Part shown: positions 6,050 through 14,447 of the stretch, piece after piece
How the letters are laid out: each line of letters begins with the position of its first letter
How positions within the stretch are numbered: position 1 is the first letter of the stretch
NCBI GenBank assembly: GCA_021158055.1
Contig: JAGGVJ010000002.1
Location: forward strand, 1-14,457
Direction: 5' to 3'
From: Candidatus Iainarchaeum sp.
GTDB lineage: Archaea > Iainarchaeota > Iainarchaeia > JAGGVJ01
Length of the DNA stretch: 14,457 nucleotides
Program-made: the position numbers and the translations under genes
Notes under the pieces: model-generated
The model's input: only the letters and a program-made list of their open reading frames with translations
What the model was told of the DNA's origin: nothing
Databases searched by the model: none

Positions 6050-6199
6050 ATGAAAGACGAATACTTTGCAGCAATAATCCTTGCGGGAGTCATTTCAGGT
6101 CTTGGAGCCGCAGCATTTCCGACAATCAACACTTTCCTGCAGATATTTCTGCTGACGGTGATTGCACTCGTTGGAATATGGTACACTATGGAAAAATAA
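6050..6199 (+). CDS. Small two-helix membrane protein, unknown function
   Basis: Encodes 49 residues starting MKDEYFAAIILAGVISGLG and ending WYTMEK. Residues 6-23 and about 28-46 are hydrophobic, with a short FPTINT turn between, so it should form a helical hairpin in the membrane. GGTGA lies 4 nt before the ATG, the standard spacing here, and the gene starts 10 nt after the PRC-barrel stop; both argue that it is real. Its last 14 bases overlap the 3' end of the convergent NFACT gene. I do not recognise a family. The context suggests a membrane partner for the PRC-barrel protein, which is inference. Confidence 0.75.
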   Translation: MKDEYFAAIILAGVISGLGAAAFPTINTFLQIFLLTVIALVGIWYTMEK

Positions 6200-7385
6200 T
6201 CTTTATTTTTCCTGTTTTTACATTTAGCCCCCCAAAAAATTTCGCTTCAGGCATGCCTTTTTCCTTTGCATCATTTAGAATTTCTGAAATTTTCTTATAG
6301 GAAAAACCTTTTTTTCTCGCTTTCTTTACTGAAGAGAGCAGGGAATCCACCTCTTTATAATGCAGGTAAATCAAATCCCCAATCTGCTTGAAGTCAACTA
6401 TTTGCTTCTCAAACTTCTTAACTGCTACTTCCTGCTGGGCAACTTTGCGTTTCACCTTAGAGACGGCGTCGTTTTGGACCGTGCGCTTCTGCAAAAGAAA
6501 CCTTTGAGCAACCAGCGGAGTAAACACACTGTCAACCGCGTCATTGAGCGAATCAAACCCTTCACTTTTTTCTGACGGCCTGGTTTCTTTCAATTCAAAA
6601 GAAACAACCCTTTGCTTTCCATAAACACGCGGATTGGTCTCCTGCGAACCCGAAACCATGCTTAAAATTGCTGAACAAAGCAAATCCAGCTCTTTTTCAG
6701 TTGCCTTTGAAGCAGGGCTTTCCTTATCAAGACCTGCCAACGCACACGCTTCTTCAAGATAAACAGAGCCCAGATTTACGCTTGTAACAAGAGTCCTGAT
6801 AACATCAGAAGTGCTTTTTCCAAAAGCCAGTGCAAGCTTCTCCTTTGTCAATTCTGTGGGGTTCAGCTTGGATGTCACCGGAAACACATAATCCTGCTTT
6901 GGCCTGAGGGTTCGTTTCGACCAGTCCTCAAACTTAAACGGGCGGATTATCTTTTTTTCCGAATCGCAAAGAACCATGTTTCCCGAGGCAAAAAGCTCAA
7001 CCATCAAAAACAGGTGATTTCTGGTATTCAGCTCAATGACAATAACACGGTCAAATTCGTGCTGGAAAACATCTTTTATCTTAAGCCCTGAAACATGTTT
7101 CCTGAGAAACATCGCAAACCCGGACGGCTTTTGCGGCGCGGGAATCTTAAAAGAAGTAAGCGCAAGCCACCCTGAAAGGTCAACCAAAAGATCTTTTGAA
7201 CCTGTTCCCGGCAGACGAAGCCGGAACTTAAAAAGCGACTCGCCAAGCTGCTGGACGTTTTCAACGTACGCGCCTTTAAGGCACACGAGCTCTTTTGCAA
7301 GAAACGAAAAATCCAGGTTTGTCAAGGGCAAAGGGCCCTGACTGCTCTTTTTCTTTACCTGTGGCTTTGATTTTAAAGCAGGCAT
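6186..7385 (-). CDS. NFACT-family protein (RqcH/Tae2/NEMF N-terminal region only)
   Basis: NFACT proteins (RqcH, yeast Rqc2, human NEMF) bind 50S/60S subunits blocked by peptidyl-tRNA and recruit tRNA to add C-terminal tails to stalled chains. From the ATG at 7383-7385 this is 399 residues. A basic tail of about 20 residues precedes the NFACT-N domain (LDFSFLAKEL..GAYVENVQQLGESLFKFRL, LRKHVSG). The conserved Asp-Arg pair, essential for tailing in RqcH, is at 112-113 (EFDRVIVIEL). A helix-hairpin-helix region (about 193-220) and a lysine-rich coiled coil (about 305-345) follow. The protein stops just after, so the NFACT-R (DUF814) domain of full-length homologues (about 550-700 residues) is absent. 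A GTG 12 nt upstream is possible, but the GGTGG..GAGG purine-rich site favours the ATG. It lies 68 nt after the geranylgeranyl reductase gene on the same strand. Confidence 0.85.
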   Translation of the reverse strand: MPALKSKPQVKKKSSQGPLPLTNLDFSFLAKELVCLKGAYVENVQQLGESLFKFRLRLPGTGSKDLLVDLSGWLALTSFKIPAPQKPSGFAMFLRKHVSGLKIKDVFQHEFDRVIVIELNTRNHLFLMVELFASGNMVLCDSEKKIIRPFKFEDWSKRTLRPKQDYVFPVTSKLNPTELTKEKLALAFGKSTSDVIRTLVTSVNLGSVYLEEACALAGLDKESPASKATEKELDLLCSAILSMVSGSQETNPRVYGKQRVVSFELKETRPSEKSEGFDSLNDAVDSVFTPLVAQRFLLQKRTVQNDAVSKVKRKVAQQEVAVKKFEKQIVDFKQIGDLIYLHYKEVDSLLSSVKKARKKGFSYKKISEILNDAKEKGMPEAKFFGGLNVKTGKIKIIFP

Positions 7386-7453
7386 TTCCTCAACCACCCG
7401 AACATTAACTTGTTCACACGTAAAACAATAAAAAAATAAAACAAAGCGAAAAA

Positions 7454-9287: not shown

Positions 9288-10748
9288 CTAAAGCTGGGAA
9301 TAATTCCCGTCATTGAACTCATACAAATATTTCTTTATCTTGTGCCCATTGAAATTATACTTCTTTTTCACTGTTTCCTCTACGCCGTAAAACTCAAAGA
9401 AATCATTTGCCTGCAAATCAAAAATGAAAAACTTTTCCCGAAAGGTCGTTTCAACAAACGAATGCCGGGTGCCGTCGTCAAGCAGCACAGTCACCACCTT
9501 TGCGTTTTCATCCCCGATGCCTTTCAGAACAGAGCACAAAAGAATGCTTGCCTCTTCACTGCTCCCGATTTTTTTTGAAACCACTTCGTCCAAGGAGAGC
9601 CAAAAACTTGATTTCATGTCATGCGGCACAACAACAATGTTTGAACGCAACCAGTCAAACGCGCCTCGAGCAACCTTTAAGTATTCTGTTTCAAACTTGT
9701 AGCCCTCCACTCCCGACATGAACCGGGCAACAAGCGTCGCAACAACCTTATCTTTTGGATTTACCAGCGACTTCATCTGGGCCGACGTCTTTGACTCGCC
9801 TGACTCGACTGCGTCCGCGTAACGGTCAATTACTGTCTGGTACAATTTGTTTTTGCCTTCTGCTTCGGCCAGCTTTTCGGCTTCTTTTGAAAGCTGCTTG
9901 TTTTTATCTGAAATGTTCTTGATTTCTTCCTGCAAATCCTTGTTTTCTTTCTGCAGTCCGGCAAACTTTGACTGCTCTGAAGAAACAGCTGACTTTGATT
10001 CATTTACCTTGTACTTGTAACTTTCCATGAGTTCAGAGTACTCGTTTAATTTTTCCCTGAAAGAATCCCTTTCTTTTGCAATGACACTCACCTGGTTGGA
10101 AAGCAAACTCACCTGCTTGGACAAAGAATCGTTTTCAACCTGCATTGCAAGCACGTTCTTTGAAGACTCGTGAGTTGATTCTAACTCGCTTTTGCCTTTG
10201 TCTTCAAGAGCAGCAATCTTTGCTTCAAGCTGGCTTATGTACTCCTTGTATGACAACCCCTGTTTTTCAAGCGAACTGATTTTTTCCTGACTCTTTGAAA
10301 CCCCTGACTTCAACTCGGCAATAGTCAAAACCTGCTTCAAATCCAGGTTTGAGCCCTTATCCAAAAAAGTCTGCAAGTCCCTTAAATCATCCAGCTTTTT
10401 GGCAATCCTGTTTTCTATTTTGCGTTTTTCTTCAGCTATTGCGTTTTTTTGTTCAATAAACTGCCCGTCGGAAATCTTCCCGTCACGGTAAGAAACAGCA
10501 ATCAAGTCCATTTTCTTGTCCAGGTTGTTCTTTTCAATGTTAAGGGCATTTATCTCAGACCAGATGTCGTCTGAAACCCCTTTCAAAGCATTCCTGCTTC
10601 TTATTAAAAAATAAACACCAACGACAATCGCAACAAGGCCCAAAAAGATGATTCCGTAAATTAAAGTATCATCCAAGGGAATCGCCTCAAATATCCCTGT
10701 TCCCAAAATAATCTGTCCAGCCATATTCTCACTCAAAAATTCAACCAT
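9288..10748 (-). CDS. Membrane-anchored coiled-coil protein with a degenerate transglutaminase-like domain
   Basis: A protein of 486 residues from the ATG at 10746-10748. One transmembrane helix (about 29-50) comes first. A long charged segment (about 52-305) follows with repeated EK/LQ heptad-like patterns, clearly coiled coil. The C-terminal part (about 345-450) has the transglutaminase-like pattern: a DWLRSNIVVVP strand, a KKIGSSEEASILLCSVLKGIG helix, RHSFVETTF and FFIFDLQ. In active members the helix starts G-x-Cys; here the position is Ser397 (codon AGT). The His (429) and Asp (444) of the triad remain. It may be a non-catalytic scaffold or have altered chemistry. A TTG 12 nt upstream and an ATG 24 nt downstream are alternative starts; all have similar gtgag-type sites. 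A 63-residue membrane protein follows. Confidence 0.75.
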   Translation of the reverse strand: MVEFLSENMAGQIILGTGIFEAIPLDDTLIYGIIFLGLVAIVVGVYFLIRSRNALKGVSDDIWSEINALNIEKNNLDKKMDLIAVSYRDGKISDGQFIEQKNAIAEEKRKIENRIAKKLDDLRDLQTFLDKGSNLDLKQVLTIAELKSGVSKSQEKISSLEKQGLSYKEYISQLEAKIAALEDKGKSELESTHESSKNVLAMQVENDSLSKQVSLLSNQVSVIAKERDSFREKLNEYSELMESYKYKVNESKSAVSSEQSKFAGLQKENKDLQEEIKNISDKNKQLSKEAEKLAEAEGKNKLYQTVIDRYADAVESGESKTSAQMKSLVNPKDKVVATLVARFMSGVEGYKFETEYLKVARGAFDWLRSNIVVVPHDMKSSFWLSLDEVVSKKIGSSEEASILLCSVLKGIGDENAKVVTVLLDDGTRHSFVETTFREKFFIFDLQANDFFEFYGVEETVKKKYNFNGHKIKKYLYEFNDGNYSQL

Positions 10749-10871
10749 AATCTCACTCAAAACTCAATTATACGTCCATCCAATACACTAAAATAGTTAA
10801 CTCATTTTAACCTTTTCGTAAGTCTCGTTGCGAAAGCCAAAGGTAGTTCACACTACACAACAAACCAACTC

Positions 10872-10880
10872 TTTTTATAC
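10872..10880 (+). promoter_or_regulatory. TATA-like box upstream of the epimerase gene
   Basis: The stretch tttttatac would place the transcription start near 10900-10905, leaving a leader of about 65 nt before the ATG at 10969. The promoter of the minus-strand coiled-coil gene must lie in the same gap. An ATG at 10901, at the predicted start point, opens a 7-codon frame (MKTKQQS) that is out of frame with the main gene. Confidence 0.4.
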
Positions 10881-10968
10881 TTGTTTTCTTTTTCTTTTTA
10901 ATGAAAACAAAACAACAATCGTAAACACATTATCAAAATCCGAAAGACAAACACAAAAAGCTGAAAAC

Positions 10969-11991
10969 ATGAAAATACTTGTAACAGGCGGGACAGGGTT
11001 CATCGGAAAAGCAGTTGTAAAACGATTGTCTGCAAACGCAAAATACGAGCTTATACTCCTTGTAAGAAACCCGCACAAAACACAAAGCGCACCTGAAAAA
11101 ATAAAATTCATAAAAACAGACCTTTTGGACCCGGACCTAGAAGAAAAAATCCCGAAATGCGATTGCGTCGTCCACATGGCCGGATCCATTGACGAACACG
11201 ACACCTCCCTTTTTGAAACCAATGTCGGCGGGACAAGAAACCTTTTAAAGGCATGCGAAGGAAAAACAAAGCAAATAGTTTTTATGAGCACTGCGGGAGT
11301 GCACGGAGAAAGCAAGGGCCAGACAAACGAAAAATCACATTTTTCCCCGCAAACGCTGTACGAAAAAAGCAAGCTTTACTCTGAACTCGCAATCAGGCGC
11401 TCAAACATCCCGTTCACAATCCTTCGCCCGACACTTGTATTCGGCCCGAACAAGTACTGGGCGCAAATATTCAACCTTGCGAAAAAAAGATTCCCTGTGA
11501 TCGGCTCGGGAAAAAACATGTTCCACACCGTGTTTTTGGAAGACGTGGTGGACGCGATAGAAAACGCTGTGAAGCTTCCTGCAAAAAATCAGGAATATTT
11601 GATTGCAGGACCCGACCCCCACACATACCTTGAAACATACACGGAAATAGCTGCATTATTTCAACAGACGCCAGGGTCAAAACTGCCTGTTTTTATTGTG
11701 AAGATCCTTGCCTTTTTCTCGTCGCTTGCAGGGAAAAAAACCATTGTCTCAAAAGAGCACATAACGAGGCTCATCAGAAACAGGTACTATGACACCAGAA
11801 AAGCACAAAGGGAGCTTGCCTGGAAGCCAAAGACAAACCTGAAAGAAGGACTCGAAAAAACCCTTGAGGTCTTAAAAAAATATAAAAAAGTTGAGTTCAC
11901 AAGCCGAAAAGAACAAGCACAGCCCGCAAACAAAAAAGAACCGGGAAATTTGCCGGATTCCAGGCAAAAAAACAAAAAACCACCTGCCTGA
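10969..11991 (+). CDS. NAD-dependent epimerase/dehydratase (extended SDR)
   Basis: A 340-residue extended short-chain dehydrogenase. The Rossmann glycine motif GGTGFIG is at residues 7-13, the VVHMAGS segment follows, and the catalytic YxxxK appears as YEKSK, preceded by the FMSTAGVHGE strand whose Ser is the usual third catalytic residue. LRPTLVFGP and HTVFLEDVVDAI are also typical. Substrates of the family are mostly nucleotide sugars, but membrane-lipid and quinone-linked relatives (NDUFA9-like) exist, and I cannot tell which applies. The last 35 residues are a basic, proline-rich tail, probably disordered. The open frame extends 47 codons upstream, but the Rossmann strand starts at this ATG and a weak GGTGA-like word (gctga) lies 4 nt before it. 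It converges with the GGGPS pair. Confidence 0.85.
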   Translation: MKILVTGGTGFIGKAVVKRLSANAKYELILLVRNPHKTQSAPEKIKFIKTDLLDPDLEEKIPKCDCVVHMAGSIDEHDTSLFETNVGGTRNLLKACEGKTKQIVFMSTAGVHGESKGQTNEKSHFSPQTLYEKSKLYSELAIRRSNIPFTILRPTLVFGPNKYWAQIFNLAKKRFPVIGSGKNMFHTVFLEDVVDAIENAVKLPAKNQEYLIAGPDPHTYLETYTEIAALFQQTPGSKLPVFIVKILAFFSSLAGKKTIVSKEHITRLIRNRYYDTRKAQRELAWKPKTNLKEGLEKTLEVLKKYKKVEFTSRKEQAQPANKKEPGNLPDSRQKNKKPPA

Positions 11992-12029: not shown

Positions 12030-12776
12030 TCATTTTGACTTTATCGCGGAAATCAGCTCGGAAAGATTTGCCCTTATCTCCTGCGGTTTTTCACCTAAGA
12101 GACCTGTAAGGATCATGTCCGCACCTGCCTCAACCTGCTGCCTTGCTTCCTGCGCAGAACTTATTCCCCCGCCGGTTAAAAGCGGAACACCGGTAACTTT
12201 CTTCACAGCACTGATAATTTCAGGTTCAAGAGGTGCGTTCACTCCAAACCCCGCGTCAAGATAAATAAGCGACTTCCCCGAATACTCTGAAAACAAAGCA
12301 TAAGAACGCACAATGTCAAGGTTTTGCCTTGGAATCGGTTTCGCATCCCCGATCCAGCTTGAAATCCCACCCGGCTCCATCACAATGTACGAAGTCGGAA
12401 TGGCATCTACCTCAAGCTCAAACACCGTGGGGGCACCGAGAGCCTGCGCTCCGGTAATCCAGTAAGTATTGTTGGAATTCACAAGAGTCATGAAAAAAAT
12501 AGCGTCAGCGTACTGGCTTACAGCGTTTGCGTTCCCGGGAAAAATAATCACAGGCAAACTGCATTGTTTTTTTATTTCAAGAACCAGCTCATCAAGGTCA
12601 GTCACGTGCACGTTCAAGGCACCGCCGAGAACAATGGCATCAGAACCGACTTCCTCAACTGCCTTCATTATTTCCGAAAGACATTTCGGGTTGTGCTTTT
12701 CAGGATCAAGGTAAGTGAAGTGAAGTTTTTGCGACCTGGCTTTTTCCATGAGGTCGTTCCAAACACCTTTTTTCAT
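12030..12776 (-). CDS. GGGPS-family protein, paralog B (altered EAGSGA loop)
   Basis: Geranylgeranylglyceryl phosphate synthase joins geranylgeranyl diphosphate to sn-glycerol-1-phosphate, the first membrane-specific step of archaeal lipid synthesis. This TIM barrel has 248 residues, the usual length. It keeps the metal-binding Asp24 in FTYLDPEK, FPGNANAVSQYADAIFF (79-95), YWITGAQALGAP, EPGG, and the beta-7 phosphate loop GGGISSAQEA (202-211). The beta-6 loop, normally YLEAGSGA, reads YLDAGFGV (172-179), with Glu, Ser and Ala all changed; the beta-8 loop is TGLLGE. Its start overlaps the stop of paralog A by four bases (ATGA), and a GGGAGGGAG site lies inside the end of A. Of the two, this one is nearer to canonical GGGPS overall. 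Activity cannot be decided from sequence. Confidence 0.88.
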   Translation of the reverse strand: MKKGVWNDLMEKARSQKLHFTYLDPEKHNPKCLSEIMKAVEEVGSDAIVLGGALNVHVTDLDELVLEIKKQCSLPVIIFPGNANAVSQYADAIFFMTLVNSNNTYWITGAQALGAPTVFELEVDAIPTSYIVMEPGGISSWIGDAKPIPRQNLDIVRSYALFSEYSGKSLIYLDAGFGVNAPLEPEIISAVKKVTGVPLLTGGGISSAQEARQQVEAGADMILTGLLGEKPQEIRANLSELISAIKSK

Positions 12777-13540
12777 ATCTTCTCCCTCCCGATTTTTTTG
12801 GTAAAAGACACGATTTCCTTTGCTTTTTCAAACGGGTTGTTTGACTTCTCAATCATTGAAGCAATGTGAATCCCGTCCGCCCCCGCCCGCACAGTGCGCT
12901 CAATGTCTTTCAGGTCCTTTGAGCTTCCCGCGCAAATTACAGGAATGTCAGTGCATGATTTTACGGCCGCAAACATTTCAGGCGTGGGAGGCGCCGGAGC
13001 ACCGCTTCCCGCTTCAAGAATGGTCATCCTGCTTCCGAGGTACTGCCCTGCAAGAGCATACGCCGCAGCCAGATCCGGCTTGTGCCTTGGAATCGGCCTT
13101 GCCTGGCCGACCCACCCCACGGTTTCACCCGGGTCGATTACAATCAGGGAAGTGGGAATCGGTTCAATCCCGAGCCTTTTTATGACCGGCGCCCCAAGCG
13201 CAGGCGCGCCGGTAATCCAATAAGGGTTCATTGAATTCATCAGGCTGTAATAATAAATCGCGTCAGCGTGAGTGGTTATTGTCCCCACGTTTCCGGGAAA
13301 CAAAAGAATCGGCAGATCAATCTCTTCCTTGATCAAACGTGCAATCTGTTCAAGAGGATACCCCTGCGCTCCAGTGGACCCGCCGATAAGAATCACATCT
13401 GCCCCGGCTTCATAAAACGCTTTGGAATTATCAAGCGCTCTTCTCGGCTCTCTTTTCGGGGGATCAATCAACCCGAAAAAACAAACCCCGTCGCTTTCAA
13501 TCACACTGTTTATATGTCTTTCAACTTTCCCGACTTTCAT
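12773..13540 (-). CDS. GGGPS-family protein, paralog A (GGGI loop lost)
   Basis: First gene of the GGGPS pair, 255 residues. It has the usual MKVGKVERHINSVI start, Asp26 in GLIDPPK, FPGNVGTITTHADAIYY, YWITGAPALGAP, IDPGETVGWVGQARPIP, and a canonical beta-6 phosphate loop EAGSGA (176-181). The beta-7 loop, GGGI(R/S)S in the family, is changed to CAGSSKD (203-209), and the beta-8 loop to HIASMIE in place of a V-G-T/N pattern. Phosphate binding should therefore be weaker or different. I chose the ATG at 13538-13540: GTGA lies 4 nt before it, the same spacing as in other genes here. A TTG at 13555 in the same frame lacks a site. It overlaps paralog B by four bases, so the two are coupled. It may be a second prenyltransferase, another TIM-barrel enzyme, or a partner of B. 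Confidence 0.85.
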   Translation of the reverse strand: MKVGKVERHINSVIESDGVCFFGLIDPPKREPRRALDNSKAFYEAGADVILIGGSTGAQGYPLEQIARLIKEEIDLPILLFPGNVGTITTHADAIYYYSLMNSMNPYWITGAPALGAPVIKRLGIEPIPTSLIVIDPGETVGWVGQARPIPRHKPDLAAAYALAGQYLGSRMTILEAGSGAPAPPTPEMFAAVKSCTDIPVICAGSSKDLKDIERTVRAGADGIHIASMIEKSNNPFEKAKEIVSFTKKIGREKI

Positions 13541-13814: not shown

Positions 13815-14447
13815 TCAGAAAAACAAAAACGCTTTTTTAAGGTCTGACTTTGCGTTTCTGCTGACAGGACCGTGGCCCGGCAAAAGTGTTTCAAATCCAA
13901 GACCGGATATCTTTTCAAGCGACTTTTTCAGTTCATCCAGACTGCCACCATGCAAGTCAACCCTTCCGATGCTTCCCCCTGAAAACAACAAATCCCCGGA
14001 AAACAACAGCTTGTTTTTCCTGTCAAAAAACACAACGCTTCCCTTTGAGTGGCCTGGAGTGGAAAACACTTCAAGACTGATCTTTCCGCATTCAATGACA
14101 TCGCCGTCACCGATTTCCCTGTGCACCACAGGCATTACCGGTTCAAACTCACTGAAAAGAGACGCACAGGTATGCTCAGGAGTCAGGTTCCTTGCGTCCT
14201 CAACACCCATTGAAACTGATTTAAAGACGTGGTCGCATGCAATGTGGTCAAAATGATTGTGAGTGTTCAAGACAACATCTATTGAATCGCTGGTCAATCC
14301 GATGTCTGAAAGCGAATCAAGAAGGTTTTGCTTGTCAACGCCCGTGTCAATCAATATGTTTTGATCGCCGCTGCTCAAAAGATACACGTTCGAGCCGAAA
14401 CCCGACTCCTTCAAAACCCACACTCCTTCACACACTCTTTCAAACAA
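13815..14447 (-). CDS. Metallo-beta-lactamase-fold hydrolase (glyoxalase II-like)
   Basis: A 210-residue single-domain metallo-beta-lactamase fold with a full set of metal ligands: His63, His65, Asp67 and His68 in THNHFDHI, His133 in TPGHSKGS, Asp152 in SGDLLF, and His192 in LPGHGP. Such proteins hydrolyse thioesters, lactones or phosphoesters; the short single-domain form with two metal sites is closest to the glyoxalase II-like group, but the substrate is unknown. The start is a TTG at 14445-14447: an AGGTG site at the window edge (14453-14457) precedes it by 5 nt, the same arrangement as in other genes here. It is on the same strand as the GGGPS pair but 274 bp upstream, so a shared transcript is uncertain. 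Confidence 0.88.
   Translation of the reverse strand: MFERVCEGVWVLKESGFGSNVYLLSSGDQNILIDTGVDKQNLLDSLSDIGLTSDSIDVVLNTHNHFDHIACDHVFKSVSMGVEDARNLTPEHTCASLFSEFEPVMPVVHREIGDGDVIECGKISLEVFSTPGHSKGSVVFFDRKNKLLFSGDLLFSGGSIGRVDLHGGSLDELKKSLEKISGLGFETLLPGHGPVSRNAKSDLKKAFLFF

Follow-up and report, generated by a model that had tools for sequence, protein, structure and literature searches.

Two coupled GGGPS homologues of separate ancestry in a Candidatus Iainarchaeum genome, one with a putatively rebuilt acceptor pocket

GGGPS is the starting enzyme of archaeal membrane lipids and sets their stereochemistry. The window, by which we mean the whole 14,457-nucleotide stretch analysed here, carries two adjacent genes for GGGPS homologues, which we call paralogues A and B. 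A sequence-only reading had reported tandem GGGPS genes joined by an ATGA overlap; both are present in the sequence, and both open reading frames are full length. The locus is made up as follows.

10828-11991, plus strand: NAD-dependent epimerase-family protein, convergent with B; its place near A-type GGGPS is conserved
12030-12776, minus strand: paralogue B, canonical-lineage group II GGGPS homologue, 248 amino acids, full length
12773-12776, minus strand: ATGA, stop of A overlapping start of B, read directly
12784-12788, minus strand: GGAGG, resembling a ribosome-binding site for B; lies within the end of A, a few bases 5' of the B ATG, read directly
12773-13540, minus strand: paralogue A, A-clade group II GGGPS homologue, 255 amino acids from its ATG, full length
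13815-14447, minus strand: metallo-beta-lactamase (MBL)-fold protein, upstream of A; its place near A-type GGGPS is conserved across the class

This arrangement suggests that A and B would be made together from one operon. A promoter and terminator scan, with bacterial consensus sequences, returned sites no more numerous than in shuffles. Two other window genes were of separate interest: 6186-7397 encodes an NFACT_N-type protein of 403 amino acids that matches profile positions 10-364 of 456 and may lack the C-terminal NFACT-R part, and 9288-10760 encodes a 490-amino-acid protein that combines a hydrophobic N-terminal segment with a long coiled coil and has, at its C terminus, a weak CEP76-peptidase-like match (E=1.4e-4, below the curated cut-off).

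A and B are 37-38% identical to each other, and both match the PcrB/GGGPS superfamily profile PF01884 (153.5 and 178.2 bits, respectively; cut-off 23.9) and the NCBIfam profile NF003198 (274 and 271 bits; cut-off 247). The AF2 models of both adopt the modified TIM-barrel fold, and their best PDB matches are all GGGPS/PcrB, namely the GGGPS of M. thermautotrophicus, T. volcanium and T. acidophilum. The model of A (pLDDT 91) aligns to the M. thermautotrophicus enzyme (4mm1) with a VIA Z of 36.7 and an rmsd of 1.3 over 236 residues, and that of B (pLDDT 88.9) with a Foldseek TM of 0.9.

In A. fulgidus GGGPS the phosphate is contacted by S169/G170, G194/G195 and V214/G215/N216, and stereospecificity and activity depend chiefly on Y124, Y165 and E167; Ser54 of the M. 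thermautotrophicus enzyme is 'possibly' a Mg/diphosphate ligand (PMC9385802). Residue numbers here follow the M. thermautotrophicus chain in 4mm1, in which Y130, Y172 and E174 correspond to A. fulgidus Y124, Y165 and E167, PMC9385802 printing different numbers for two of the three. The motifs singled out in the sequence-only reading (EAGSGA, CAGSSKD and HIAS in A; GGGISS and DAGFGV in B) were all recovered, and their assignment to phosphate-binding loops agrees both with these published contacts and with an alignment that sets a close homologue against PDB 2f6u and equates the third Gly of GGG with G195 and the Gly of loop 8 with G215, the two positions on which substitutions in A fall. We then compared A and B with 98 relatives (100 aligned sequences), among which 14 columns are at least 98% invariant. 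The pocket positions at which the pair departs from its relatives, along the window, are these.

12246-12248, minus strand: B residue 177, Phe where relatives have Ser/Gly; phosphate loop 6
12255-12257, minus strand: B residue 174, Asp in place of Glu; equivalent of A. fulgidus E167, the residue thought to polarise the hydroxyl of the acceptor
12618-12620, minus strand: B residue 53, Ala where relatives have Ser/Thr; M. thermautotrophicus S54, possible Mg/diphosphate ligand
12860-12862, minus strand: A residue 227, Ala against Gly in 98/98 relatives; equivalent of A. fulgidus G215 (G225), phosphate loop 8
12923-12925, minus strand: A residue 206, Ser against Gly in 98/98 relatives; equivalent of A. 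fulgidus G195 (G204), phosphate loop 7
13145-13147, minus strand: A residue 132, Leu against Tyr in 98/98 relatives; equivalent of A. fulgidus Y124 (Y130), glycerol-1-phosphate (G1P) pocket

A departs at three of the 14 near-invariant columns, all three in the G1P pocket, and every other aligned sequence departs at one at most; on this comparison A's departures exceed chance. By our count five of the 14 columns belong to that pocket, and the probability that three random departures would all land there is about 0.03. At the Tyr-Tyr-Glu set A has Leu, Ile and Glu. Its loss of the Y165 equivalent is common to the A-clade and its loss of the Y124 equivalent, which the sequence-only reading had missed, is unique to A among the 98 relatives. 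Phosphate loop 6 is intact, loops 7 and 8 carry Gly-to-Ser and Gly-to-Ala changes, and Ala for the first Gly of GGG, giving the A-G start of loop 7, is the class norm. The Mg/diphosphate Asp (A. fulgidus D13, M. thermautotrophicus D25) is kept in both proteins, and A further retains S54 and E174, so that the prenyl-diphosphate side and the hydroxyl-polarising Glu are present.

B had been thought to have suffered a loss complementary to that of A. This idea is weakened, because B holds all 14 near-invariant columns, to A's 11, and its Glu-to-Asp change at E167 also occurs in seven of seven single-copy enzymes from A-clade genomes outside the class. B has Tyr, Tyr and Asp at the Tyr-Tyr-Glu set and keeps the glycines of loops 7 and 8, its changes being the loop-6 Ser to Phe and the previously overlooked loss of Ser54, both unique against the 98 relatives. 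The losses thus appear lopsided: to judge from these residues, the acceptor side of A has been rebuilt and its prenyl-diphosphate side kept, with B closer to the standard enzyme. By the terms of the sequence-only reading, the same substitutions in a proven single-copy GGGPS would have told against it; Y130L, G204S, G225A, S54A and S177F are each found in 0 of the 98 relatives.

Both proteins could also be ordinary GGGPS that tolerate their substitutions and are retained for redundancy, for dosage or for a slightly different prenyl chain length, an account that we consider unlikely. Gly to Ser or Ala can preserve the backbone NH that binds phosphate, which counts against an altered acceptor. 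The phosphate contacts are made partly through the backbone, the Glu-to-Asp change of B is standard in related single-copy enzymes, the genome encodes two polyprenyl diphosphate synthases, and the two GGGPS paralogues of haloarchaea are thought to differ in prenyl donor (PMC9385802). Against this account, A alone breaks three positions invariant in 98 of 98 relatives, all on the acceptor side, and B has its own two unique pocket changes.

A serious rival, although we would still sooner doubt than accept it, is a mixed A-B hexamer in which A is mainly a structural or regulatory subunit and B the catalyst. The aromatic anchor of the group II hexamer ring interface, W141, is kept in both copies, position 146 is cationic in each (Arg for A and Lys for B), and loss of the hexamer costs the M. 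thermautotrophicus enzyme about 380-fold in efficiency (PMC9298306). Translational coupling would fit 1:1 production, and the residues lost from A would be free to drift. However, a structural subunit would have no need of D25, S54 and E174, all of which A retains, and both copies of the one other tandem pair in the class, in genome G068, retain the normal pocket of their lineage. Redundant ordinary enzymes are less likely than such a hexamer, as is the decay considered below.

A PcrB match was found in 120 of the 143 genomes chosen as relatives and in 73 of the 87 genomes of the window's class, almost always in single copy; the tandem pair of G068 lies at L034:6825-8405. The usual gene order in the class is epimerase, GGGPS, MBL-fold protein and RPA-like protein. 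The order is epimerase-B-A-MBL in the window and epimerase-MazG-B-A-MBL in G068; A therefore occupies the native slot of the class, and B lies between A and the epimerase gene in both genomes. Separately, we observed a third, very divergent PcrB-like clade (L035:966-1751, L037:4527-5306, L039:5410-6219 and L041:749-1546) that carries QIDPD, replaces the catalytic Glu by Ala (as IMAGGSG in most members) and has TSG at loop 7; two of its members were scored, and both fell below the NCBIfam GGGPS subfamily cut-off.

The pair had been proposed to have split functions after a duplication. A 44-row maximum-likelihood tree separates A from B: A falls in a clade (100/95) with the class single copies and sequences from other small archaeal genomes outside the class, a clade of GGGPS that is archaeal and probably DPANN, and B groups with Aenigmatarchaeota (94/82) on a long branch. 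A sister pairing of A and B was rejected (AU test, p=0.012), and the pair is therefore not a lineage-specific duplication, which we consider ruled out. The G068 copy of B groups in the best tree not with window B but with family f2, whose canonical GGGPS adjoins an RNA-cyclase-like gene and a G1P dehydrogenase (G1PDH). A union of B, G068-B and f2 is nevertheless compatible with the data (AU test, p=0.24), so that orthology of window B and G068-B runs contrary to the best tree without being rejected by the test. Synteny and tree together would allow either origin for B, which may have been inherited with A or acquired by transfer.

Many DPANN archaea have a GGGPS and lack a G1P dehydrogenase, and the origin of their glycerol phosphate is unsettled. 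The window's own genome (94.9% complete) gave no match to PF13685 (Fe-ADH_2) or PF00465 (Fe-ADH), and a search of it with the f2 G1P dehydrogenase turned up nothing convincing. Its lipid genes include three members of the UbiA family, a tandem pair of polyprenyl diphosphate synthases, CarS and a geranylgeranyl reductase; at L097:1336-3554, on contig C33 of the same genome, this synthase pair is followed by a second geranylgeranyl-reductase-like gene. In a reduced genome unable to make G1P, one or both copies could be decaying under relaxed selection, as their long branches (1.09 for A and 1.4 for B; median 0.54), the pocket residues missing from both and the failure to find a G1PDH in the genome might suggest. 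Such decay strikes us as improbable: both reading frames are intact, full length and coupled, both models are confident GGGPS folds, and the structural invariants are kept (14 of 14 in B, and 11 of 14 in A with the misses confined to one pocket).

The lack of G1PDH extends beyond this genome. Scoring as strong any G1PDH match of at least 55 bits, we found one across the sampled genomes (loci L036-L082 and L090-L093) in 2 of 44 cases of A-clade GGGPS, in which the loop-6 tyrosine is lost, versus 29 of 33 canonical ones (Fisher p about 1e-14, uncorrected for descent); the association is largely one of a single clade against the rest. G1PDH is missing even from near-complete A-clade genomes, including G003 (one contig, 99%), G007, G093 and G094, and within family f30, G093 has an A-clade GGGPS and no G1PDH and G135 has a group I GGGPS with a G1PDH. 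In family f7 of the class, the four genomes G009, G036, G053 and G080 gave neither a GGGPS nor a G1PDH match; taken with the G1PDH pattern, this would fit what PMC12892359 and PMC8975820 describe for Micrarchaeota. Loss of G1PDH has been inferred in the ancestor of Iainarchaeota, B1Sed10-29 and Micrarchaeota (PMC12892359), and FCB bacteria and some archaea have GGGPS without G1PDH, with use of G3P suggested (PMC6431249, PMC7852524). Because FCB bacteria keep GGGPS in this way, a new acceptor is not a necessary consequence of lacking G1PDH, and since both the pattern and the suggested use of G3P are already reported, that idea is not new; host-derived G1P is a possible supply. A limited literature search found no report tying G1PDH absence to a GGGPS clade whose tyrosine set is altered.

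Our preferred reading, offered tentatively, is that B is an ordinary GGGPS and A a prenyltransferase with a changed or relaxed acceptor, the two having come from different ancestries into one operon. A would be the class's native copy in its native gene neighbourhood; B would derive from the canonical lineage, a B-like copy adjoining A in at least one other class genome, and would catalyse the usual GGGPS step, in which a prenyl group passes to a glycerol phosphate. The acceptor side of A would have been rebuilt, with both stereospecificity tyrosines gone and two of the three phosphate loops altered, and its acceptor might be, for example, G3P or another phosphorylated or neutral molecule in a cell without a recognisable G1P dehydrogenase. 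We favour this role for A because D25, S54 and the Glu are kept and acceptor contacts are lost; the suggestion in the sequence-only reading that one copy takes another acceptor fits its residue pattern. We infer these catalytic roles from residues and gene content, and S54A and S177F mean that B may not be an ordinary enzyme either. In a genome without a recognisable G1P-making enzyme, at least one copy may act on something else. A broader proposal, which we regard as doubtful, is that the whole archaeal (probably DPANN) clade of GGGPS without the loop-6 tyrosine, in genomes without G1PDH, uses an acceptor other than G1P, such as G3P, with A the most remodelled member seen and the A-B pair keeping both chemistries. 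As a pair in which one copy belongs to a clade tied to G1PDH absence and has uniquely lost stereospecificity and phosphate-loop residues, A and B offer concrete enzymes on which to ask whether these archaea use host G1P, G3P or something else.

Several known systems frame the pair. With the group II GGGPS of M. thermautotrophicus (4mm1) both copies have in common the family profile, the TIM barrel, D25 and the hexamer-anchor Trp; A differs from it in lacking Y130, Y172, G204 and G225, and B in lacking S54, E174 (Asp instead) and S177 (Phe instead). Single-copy GGGPS of the same class (such as L045 from G003 and L048 from G005) resemble A in having DPP at strand 1, no loop-6 tyrosine and a loop 7 that opens with A-G, and in sitting between MBL and epimerase genes; unlike A, they retain the other tyrosine, the loop-7 third Gly and the loop-8 Gly, and no B copy accompanies them. 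The tandem pair of G068 resembles that of the window in order, with B and A on the same strand, and differs in that each copy keeps its lineage's normal pocket. The haloarchaeal pair IaH1 and IaH2 likewise places two GGGPS in one archaeon, although these are group I enzymes that differ at the prenyl-length limiter and not in the acceptor pocket (PMC9385802). Finally, MoeO5 has the same fold (Z 27) and is a precedent for another acceptor, 3-phosphoglycerate (PMC9385802), but it is unlike the pair in its 16% identity, its bacterial antibiotic pathway and its farnesyl donor.
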